From: Rhodospirillales bacterium
GTDB taxonomy: Bacteria > Pseudomonadota > Alphaproteobacteria > Reyranellales > Reyranellaceae
DNA: 64,000 bases
Reading direction: 5' to 3'
NCBI GenBank assembly: GCA_947466085.1
Contig: CANIEC010000005.1
Location: forward strand, 1-64,000
In this document: in pieces, positions 56,907 to 57,949 of the stretch
Position numbering within the stretch: the stretch's first letter is position 1
Layout of the letters: each line of letters begins with the position of its first letter
Notes under the pieces: generated by a model
Database searches by the model: none
What the model was told of the DNA's origin: nothing
Seen by the model: only the letters and a program-made list of their open reading frames with translations
Translations under genes and position numbers: made by a program

Positions 56907-56945
56907 GCCCGGCAACCCGCGAGGTTGCCGGGCGGACGGTCTTTG
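56907..56945 (+). terminator. Terminator after the amidase
   Basis: GCCCGGCAACC (56907-56917) pairs perfectly with 56923-56933 over a five-base loop; CTTT follows about seven bases later. A strong stem with a weak U-tract. Confidence 0.7.
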
Positions 56946-57049
56946 CCCCACATCATCTTTTCGCACCGCACCGCCACTTCGGAGGCCCTGCCCCGTTTGT
57001 GAGGGAGCGTCCCCGTCACGAGACGGGTTCCCCCAAAACGGAGGTAGCG

Positions 57050-57388
57050 ATGAACAAGCTGAAGTTCTTGATGGTGACAGGCCTGTTGGCCGCGACCGCG
57101 GCCTGCAACCAGACCGGACCCAACAACCCGTATGCCTACAACAACGGCTACAATACCCGGCCGGCCAACAACAACGCCTACAACCCCAGCAACAACCCGT
57201 ACAACAGCGGCTACAACAACAACGCCGCCTACTACAACAACAACCCTTCCTACAACCCGAACGGCAACCCGTATTCACGCGCCACCTCCCAGCGCGGTCC
57301 GAACGGCGACTACGACCGCGATGGCATCCCCAACCGCAACGACATCGACGCCAATGGCGATCGCATTCCGGACGCCTTCCAGCGCTAG
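57050..57388 (+). CDS. Asn/Tyr-rich lipoprotein with calcium-loop-like tail, copy 1
   Basis: A 112-residue predicted lipoprotein. The signal ends at Cys19 (LLAATAAC). Residues about 20-82 are a repetitive Asn-Tyr-Pro stretch (NNPY, YNNG, YNNN units). The C-terminal tail DYDRDGIPNRNDIDANGDRI has two DxDxDG-type loops like thrombospondin type-3 repeats. GGAGG lies upstream of ATG 57050. A terminator follows. Its neighbour at 57581 has the same plan. Function unknown. Confidence 0.75.
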   Translation: MNKLKFLMVTGLLAATAACNQTGPNNPYAYNNGYNTRPANNNAYNPSNNPYNSGYNNNAAYYNNNPSYNPNGNPYSRATSQRGPNGDYDRDGIPNRNDIDANGDRIPDAFQR

Positions 57389-57413
57389 CTCGACGACTGC
57401 GAACATGATCGAC

Positions 57414-57444
57414 CGGCTCCCGTGGAAATCCGGGAGCCGTTTCT
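57414..57444 (+). terminator. Intrinsic terminator after lipoprotein copy 1
   Basis: CGGCTCCCG (57414-57422) pairs perfectly with CGGGAGCCG (57431-57439), followed by TTTCT. Confidence 0.85.
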
Positions 57445-57580
57445 GCGTCCGGTCACCAATCGATCACCGCCCGCCTCGAACAAAGCTTCTCCGCGCCCCC
57501 GCGCCGCCACTGTCCCCCGCGAATCTCCGTTCATGGGAACGTCCCGCTCGACATCGGGCGTTCCTCCTGGAGGGAACAGA

Positions 57581-57949
57581 ATGCGCTGCGTCAGCTGGCT
57601 CGCCGCCGCGAGCCTCGTGGTGGTGACGGCGGGGTGCGTTGAACAGTCGGGCTATCCGACGACTTATGGCTACAGCCCGGGCTACGGATCGAACTACGGC
57701 TATTCCGGCTATTCCAACAACTATGTCAGCCAGCCGAGCTACTACCGGCCGGCCCCGACCTACTACGCACCGCCGCCGCCCCGGCCGCAGGTGATCACCC
57801 AGACGCGCTACGTGCCGGTGCCGGTGGCCCCGCCGAGGCCGCAATATCAGCGGGCGAGGGACAGCGACCGGGACGGCATCCCCGACCGCTACGACCGCGA
57901 CCGGAACGGCGACGGCGTACCGGACAAGTACCAGCGTTCGCGTTGGTAA
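57581..57949 (+). CDS. Tyr/Gly/Pro-rich lipoprotein with calcium-loop-like tail, copy 2
   Basis: A 122-residue predicted lipoprotein, Cys19 again (VVVTAGC). The middle is Tyr/Gly/Ser- then Pro-rich (SYYRPAPTYYAPPPPRP). The tail DSDRDGIPDRYDRDRNGDGV is alignable with copy 1 and has two acidic loops. GGAGGGAACAGA precedes ATG 57581. Separate from copy 1 by a terminator, so it has its own promoter. Function unknown. Confidence 0.75.
   Translation: MRCVSWLAAASLVVVTAGCVEQSGYPTTYGYSPGYGSNYGYSGYSNNYVSQPSYYRPAPTYYAPPPPRPQVITQTRYVPVPVAPPRPQYQRARDSDRDGIPDRYDRDRNGDGVPDKYQRSRW

Follow-up and report, generated by a model that had tools for sequence, protein, structure and literature searches.

What could be the role of two adjacent small lipoproteins whose middles have diverged almost beyond recognition while their C-terminal ends have been kept? 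This question arises at positions 57,050 to 57,949 of the 64,000-nucleotide stretch of alphaproteobacterial DNA analysed here (the window), where an original prediction, made from the letters of the sequence, had proposed a pair of envelope lipoproteins with calcium loops at their ends. We followed this pair, termed P1 and P2, through related genomes, protein families and solved structures.

Two tandem lipoproteins built on one plan

Both genes lie on the forward strand. P1 (57050-57388; Shine-Dalgarno (SD) sequence GGAGG) encodes 112 residues and P2 (57581-57949; SD sequence GGAGGG) encodes 122. Each protein opens with a hydrophobic signal segment and a lipobox ending in cysteine, as bacterial lipoproteins do; signal peptide and lipobox together occupy 57050-57106 in P1 (TAAC, Cys19 at 57104-57106) and 57581-57637 in P2 (TAGC, Cys19 at 57635-57637). 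The lipoboxes carry small residues at -1 and -2 and threonine instead of the usual leucine at -3, and Cys19 is invariant across alignment A1. A low-complexity linker follows, rich in Asn and Tyr in P1 (23 Asn, 10 Tyr, 9 Pro) and in Tyr and Pro in P2 (15 Pro, 14 Tyr), where it includes the VITQTRYVPVPV motif, and each chain closes with a two-loop tail. The tails agree at 16 of 25 positions and the signal segments at 6 of 19. The original description holds for the two reading frames, for the lipoboxes ending at Cys19, for the middles of low complexity and for tails that can be aligned.

The residue at +2 is Asn in P1 and Val in P2. Since neither protein has Asp at this position, both are probably sorted to the outer membrane, by a +2 rule that comes from Escherichia coli.

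The most constant portion of the P2 linker is the VVTQTRYVPVPV motif (here VITQTRYVPVPV, residues 71-82, 57791-57826), which is retained even in relatives with a reduced tail. Several P1 orthologues (loci of the L013-L030 region, such as L022, L028 and L029) carry a GYWRNGxYYSN or YYSDGxYY linker motif that also occurs in a Novosphingobium lipoprotein (L104) and loosely resembles the WXXGXW repeat.

Each tail is a pair of aspartate-rich loops

Each tail consists of two 12-residue loops of the DxDxDG type, repeating every 13 residues. In P1, loop A covers residues 87-98 (DYDRDGIPNRND, 57308-57343, forward strand) in the DxDxDG register, and loop B covers residues 100-111 (DANGDRIPDAFQ, 57347-57382, forward strand). 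In P2, loops A (residues 94-105, DSDRDGIPDRYD, 57860-57895) and B (residues 107-118, DRNGDGVPDKYQ, 57899-57934), also on the forward strand, follow the register of COMP, the human protein discussed below. Ligand positions are kept in all four loops. P1 loop A and both P2 loops conform to the Dx[DN]xDG consensus with its downstream oxygen ligands, and P1 loop B departs from it by the Arg that replaces Gly6 in this clade.

The original prediction was right that the ends align but drew them too short, quoting only the first of the two loops in each tail. Its description of the tails as acidic applies to the 25-residue loop segments (net charge -4 in P1 and -3 in P2) but not to the P2 tail as a whole: with flanks included, the net charge (K/R minus D/E) is -3 in P1 and +1 in P2.

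Shuffling the mature chains reproduced the double-loop pattern in 3 of 200,000 trials for P1 and in none of 200,000 for P2, and shuffling the tails alone gave it in none of 200,000. In the genome, the tail profile matched P1 and P2 only. EF-hand and dockerin loops are flanked by helices. In the tails, no helix would fit between loops set 13 residues apart, and the low-confidence AlphaFold model contains only three-residue helical turns. This model, computed on alignment A1 (mean pLDDT 51, about 55 in the tail), has no confident fold and so lends no support to a compact knob; as the alignment was shallow and no metal was present, it neither supports nor refutes one.

Relation to known calcium-binding families

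The proposed likeness to thrombospondin type-3 loops held, in that motif and register match those of COMP and weak, sub-threshold matches to Pfam TSP_3 were found. Among solved structures, the tail profile matched human COMP (3fby; residues 94-118, both loops, same 13-residue register, E 0.002) as well as the OmpA-family protein 5wtl. COMP was reached by the profile only; a phmmer search of solved structures with the single P1 tail gave no match. Calcium binding by the type-3 repeats of COMP is established. Against TSP_3 (PF02412, cut-off 25 bits), P2 scored 14.6 bits and P1 gave no match; weak matches occurred in 8 of 21 family members, and a five-loop relative in genome G041 reached 53.9 bits. 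The tails thus share with type-3 repeats the DxDxDGxxDxxD loops, the 13-residue register and the extracytoplasmic setting. They differ in lacking the Cys/NCP disulfide pattern of the animal repeats, in having just two loops at the free C-terminus of a lipoprotein, and in their sub-cut-off Pfam score.

More broadly, the tails belong to the Dx[DN]xDG class, in which near-identical calcium binding is found in unrelated folds and whose motifs strongly favour proteins that are periplasmic, at the surface or secreted (PMC3123361). They resemble this class in their two motif copies, in having further acidic or amide ligands at positions 9 and 12, and in the extracytoplasmic bias. Most contexts described for the class are folded domains (PMC3123361), whereas the chain that leads to the P1 and P2 loops is of low complexity and probably disordered. 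From these named families we infer that the tails would coordinate calcium. The Excalibur domain (PF05901, cut-off 22 bits) likewise has a DxDxDG-type loop in extracellular proteins; P2 scored 10.8 bits against it and P1 nothing, and the tails of both are free of cysteine. An NCBIfam BamM match of P2 (15.7 versus 315 bits) was rejected as a chance match of the Asp loops.

The original prediction knew of no described family. This holds for the whole protein, which no Pfam or NCBIfam model matched above cut-off, but not for the tail with its class membership. The loop is already known. The family formed by the whole protein has no name in the libraries searched, and a literature search for lipoproteins of Reyranella, or for small ones of the type-3 kind, returned nothing relevant. 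The arrangement, in which a minimal type-3-like loop pair closes a low-complexity lipoprotein and the genes stand in tandem at one fixed site, varies known kinds and does not amount to a new one.

The same tail motif, with DRDRDGVPNRYDRDRDGDGVPNRYDRRPNNPYR-type ends, occurs in Burkholderiales on small lipoproteins and on WXXGXW (PF12779) proteins. A scan of named genomes found this plan in small lipoproteins from Variovorax, Xenophilus, Polaromonas and Ramlibacter; in the first three, lipobox, short linker and tail follow one another as in P1 and P2. In Massilia and Duganella the tail sits on WXXGXW proteins. The Burkholderiales proteins differ in their linkers and in an extra RRPNNPYR-type end, and they have no full-length similarity to P1 or P2. 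Their relationship to the pair may reflect either a shared tail module or convergence. WXXGXW-type secreted proteins ending in the tail motif (L077, L082-L085 and L096, from Massilia, Duganella and Janthinobacterium) sometimes carry at least four loops.

Ligand positions are conserved while linkers diverge

Tails chosen by their motif would make any test of ligand conservation circular, and we therefore collected 110 array lipoproteins by lipobox, SD sequence and Tyr content only, regardless of tail. At the ten expected calcium ligand positions (1, 3, 5, 9 and 12 of each loop), 87-100% of residues are D, E, N or Q, as against 0-10% at the other loop positions. Most substitutions are exchanges of D and N, or of D to E or Q at position 12, so that an oxygen donor is kept. 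The Asp spacing, whose loss in homologues the original prediction had named as grounds for rejecting it, is retained. Several non-ligand positions are also conserved: Ile/Val7, Pro8, Arg10, the aromatic residue at 11, and Gly4 of loop B.

Rates of change follow the same division. Among 13 close orthologues, dN/dS was 0.15 in the signal, 0.45 in the linker and 0.10 in the tail of P1, and 0.21, 0.16 and 0.03 in the corresponding parts of P2. Gap cells numbered 24 in the tail versus 984 in the linker for P1, and 0 versus 472 for P2. The predicted pattern of diverging middles and kept ends is thereby supported by alignment, by dN/dS and by indels that fall almost entirely in the linker.

Taken with the motif, this pattern makes calcium binding by the tail likely. 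A different reading holds that the D/R-rich end binds no calcium in the cell and is a conserved charged signal for adhesion or assembly, for instance for sorting or peptidoglycan binding. The alternating, nearly charge-balanced Asp and Arg residues (P2 net +1), the conserved Arg/Lys and aromatic positions and the missing Gly6 of P1 loop B would all suit such a signal. We nevertheless consider it unlikely, since the conserved sites coincide exactly with the ligand positions of EF-type loops, changes there preserve oxygen donors, and the register is that of solved calcium-binding type-3 repeats.

Within two genomes, G053 (L025) and G032 (L030/L058), the tail of P1 is exceptionally similar to that of P2, at 85-89% DNA identity compared with a cross-genome mean of 68%, which suggests local tail exchange. 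General gene conversion between the P1 and P2 tails was rejected, high within-genome tail identity being confined to these two genomes.

Loops seem to be gained, lost and replaced

Loop number among relatives ranges from one (G026, G060) through three or four (G063, G065) to five (G041). The loci L138 (G041), L124 (G065), L135 (G026) and L134 (G021) include five-, four- and one-loop relatives. The two-loop counterparts of one-loop relatives are longer by 13 residues, so loops have seemingly been gained or lost as units. The shortest tailed member, of 69 residues (G070), has little beyond lipobox and tail; together with the variable loop number, it indicates that the essentials of P1 are the lipobox and the tail, with the linker as a spacer.

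P2 tails are not universal. In several species they have shrunk to a RDRDGDGRPDRRS-like stub or been replaced by His-rich ends, which implies that calcium loops are not strictly needed for P2. The replacement ends include HHHHHHHRG (G038), HHHHHHHYDYG (G016) and HPHDHDGYHDHDGDRRS (G011). His-rich or His/Asp-rich ends were seen in the tail-less array lipoproteins L114 (G016), L129 (G038), L128 (G011) and L147 (G067). There is a hint here that metal binding in general, rather than calcium binding alone, is what the array lipoproteins conserve.

On that basis the tails might form an envelope metal buffer or scavenger, holding divalent metal (Ca2+, or transition metals too) as a reservoir or shield with no specific partner. 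The replacement ends and the range of one to five loops speak for such a role, but two sites per protein are few for a reservoir, the P2 tail is strongly constrained, and the conserved residues between the ligands exceed what a buffer would need. A buffering function is accordingly improbable in our judgement.

A proposed calcium-stabilised envelope tether

We favour a tentative account in which P1 and P2 act as tandem paralogous envelope lipoproteins. They would be exported, cut and lipidated at Cys19, and then placed in the outer membrane. The low-complexity middle would form an unstructured spacer of variable length, and the tail a minimal thrombospondin type-3-like unit in which positions 1, 3, 5, 9 and 12 of each loop coordinate one Ca2+. 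At millimolar external calcium this unit would be a compact, calcium-stabilised knob, disordered when calcium is absent. The knob, with its Arg/Lys and aromatic flanks, would most probably make calcium-dependent contacts with other envelope components, be they lipopolysaccharide (LPS) phosphates, peptidoglycan or a protein partner, and the pair would thus stabilise the envelope in the manner of short, flexible tethers or caps.

In favour of this account we count the invariant Cys19, the conserved ligand positions, the low dN/dS of the tail, the COMP register, the unit-like behaviour of the loops, the minimal member, the extracytoplasmic bias of the motif class and the shared plan in Burkholderiales; against it count the missing Gly6 in P1 loop B, the lack of any TSP_3 score above cut-off, the AlphaFold model with no confident fold and the loss of the tail in P2 relatives. 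The role as a tether is inferred only, and the full account of tether and stabiliser, although plausible, falls a little short of being probable.

Small lipoproteins with short DxDxDG tails are found repeatedly in Reyranellaceae and Burkholderiales. These tails score below family-library cut-offs and so go unannotated. Should they fold on calcium, they would be very small type-3-like calcium modules and a simple means of learning what Gram-negative envelopes do with calcium besides bridging LPS. The two lipoproteins are also an easily testable system, comprising peptides of about 30 residues, two genes and one locus.

A fixed genomic site in Reyranella, a soil and water bacterium

Matches to P1 were found in 43 of 61 genomes of the genus and matches to P2 in 56 of 61, and the full-length profile matched in 65 of 76 genomes of the order. 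Near relatives include Reyranella sp. and metagenome assemblies labelled Rhodospirillales or Rhodospirillaceae, and the genus of the window is accordingly taken to be Reyranella. Across the class, the tail profile alone matched in 5 of 289 genomes: three of this genus and two others, one with a long repeat protein and one with a secreted protein that carries the tail mid-chain. Across the phylum it matched in 20 of 299 genomes, and most of these matches lay in open frames of great length, such as type-3 repeat proteins typically have; the matches inspected include WXXGXW-type and Tyr/Pro-rich secreted proteins.

At 16 of 18 inspected loci, the array is flanked by an amidase on one side and a CaiB-type CoA-transferase on the other. 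These flanks also occur in G071, which belongs to a genus outside Reyranella, and are absent from both loci of genus g3. Between them lie one to three lipoproteins, usually two; in G015, G042 and G044 a third gene with a single loop occupies the middle. The conserved neighbourhood consists of the amidase, the CoA-transferase, a PrmB-like methyltransferase and a phosphofructokinase.

The amidase/CoA-transferase site could conceivably be a fixed workshop that diversifies metal-capped bristle lipoproteins and so tunes the Reyranella surface to the local metal supply, an idea that we regard as quite unlikely. Linker length would vary in such a workshop, and the cap would be gained, lost, multiplied or swapped between calcium loops and His-rich ends.

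Probably separately transcribed tandem paralogues

The terminator predicted between the genes corresponds to a real hairpin. It has 9 bp (57414-57439), is followed by a short T-run (57414-57442 in all, forward strand), folds at -19 kcal/mol and is probably an intrinsic terminator; a consensus terminator scan did not call it, because the T-run is short. Most relatives have a hairpin of the GGCTCCCG/CGGGAGCC type at this place between the two genes, several of them with a proper T-run.

Each gene also has an upstream region of its own on the forward strand. For P1 (56936-57047), a promoter-like block (about 56936-57010), CTtTaCa.aActtcatctTttcGCc...GCCAC...CgTACctCgTT, is conserved in 31 genomes and a leader hairpin lies at 57000-57047 (fold z -4.2 in the window). 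For P2 (57478-57580), the block (about 57478-57530), tGCCttcAAcAAatC..TTgcG.C...GTC, is conserved in 29 genomes and the leader hairpin lies at 57535-57565 (z -2.5 in the window; mean z -1.44 over the 29 genomes versus -0.22 in controls). Given a separate block for each gene and the hairpin between them, P1 and P2 look like separately transcribed tandem paralogues and not an operon.

Such independent, seemingly regulated expression, together with the conserved surface residues between the ligands, would suit a calcium sensor, in which a calcium-driven change in the shape of the tail tells a signalling protein about the state of the envelope, but this is very unlikely, as the conserved neighbourhood holds no signalling gene and no partner was found.

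An Rfam search of the window gave no match, and RNAalifold on gapped alignments detected no compensatory changes in the leader hairpins, the evidence for which therefore consists of folds of single sequences and a modest shift in z. Each leader hairpin stands directly before the SD sequence of its gene; in the window it outdoes shuffled sequences in folding, and across relatives it does so by a modest margin. The promoter-like blocks, compared in about 30 genomes, differ from the plain sigma-70 consensus and may mark a regulon.
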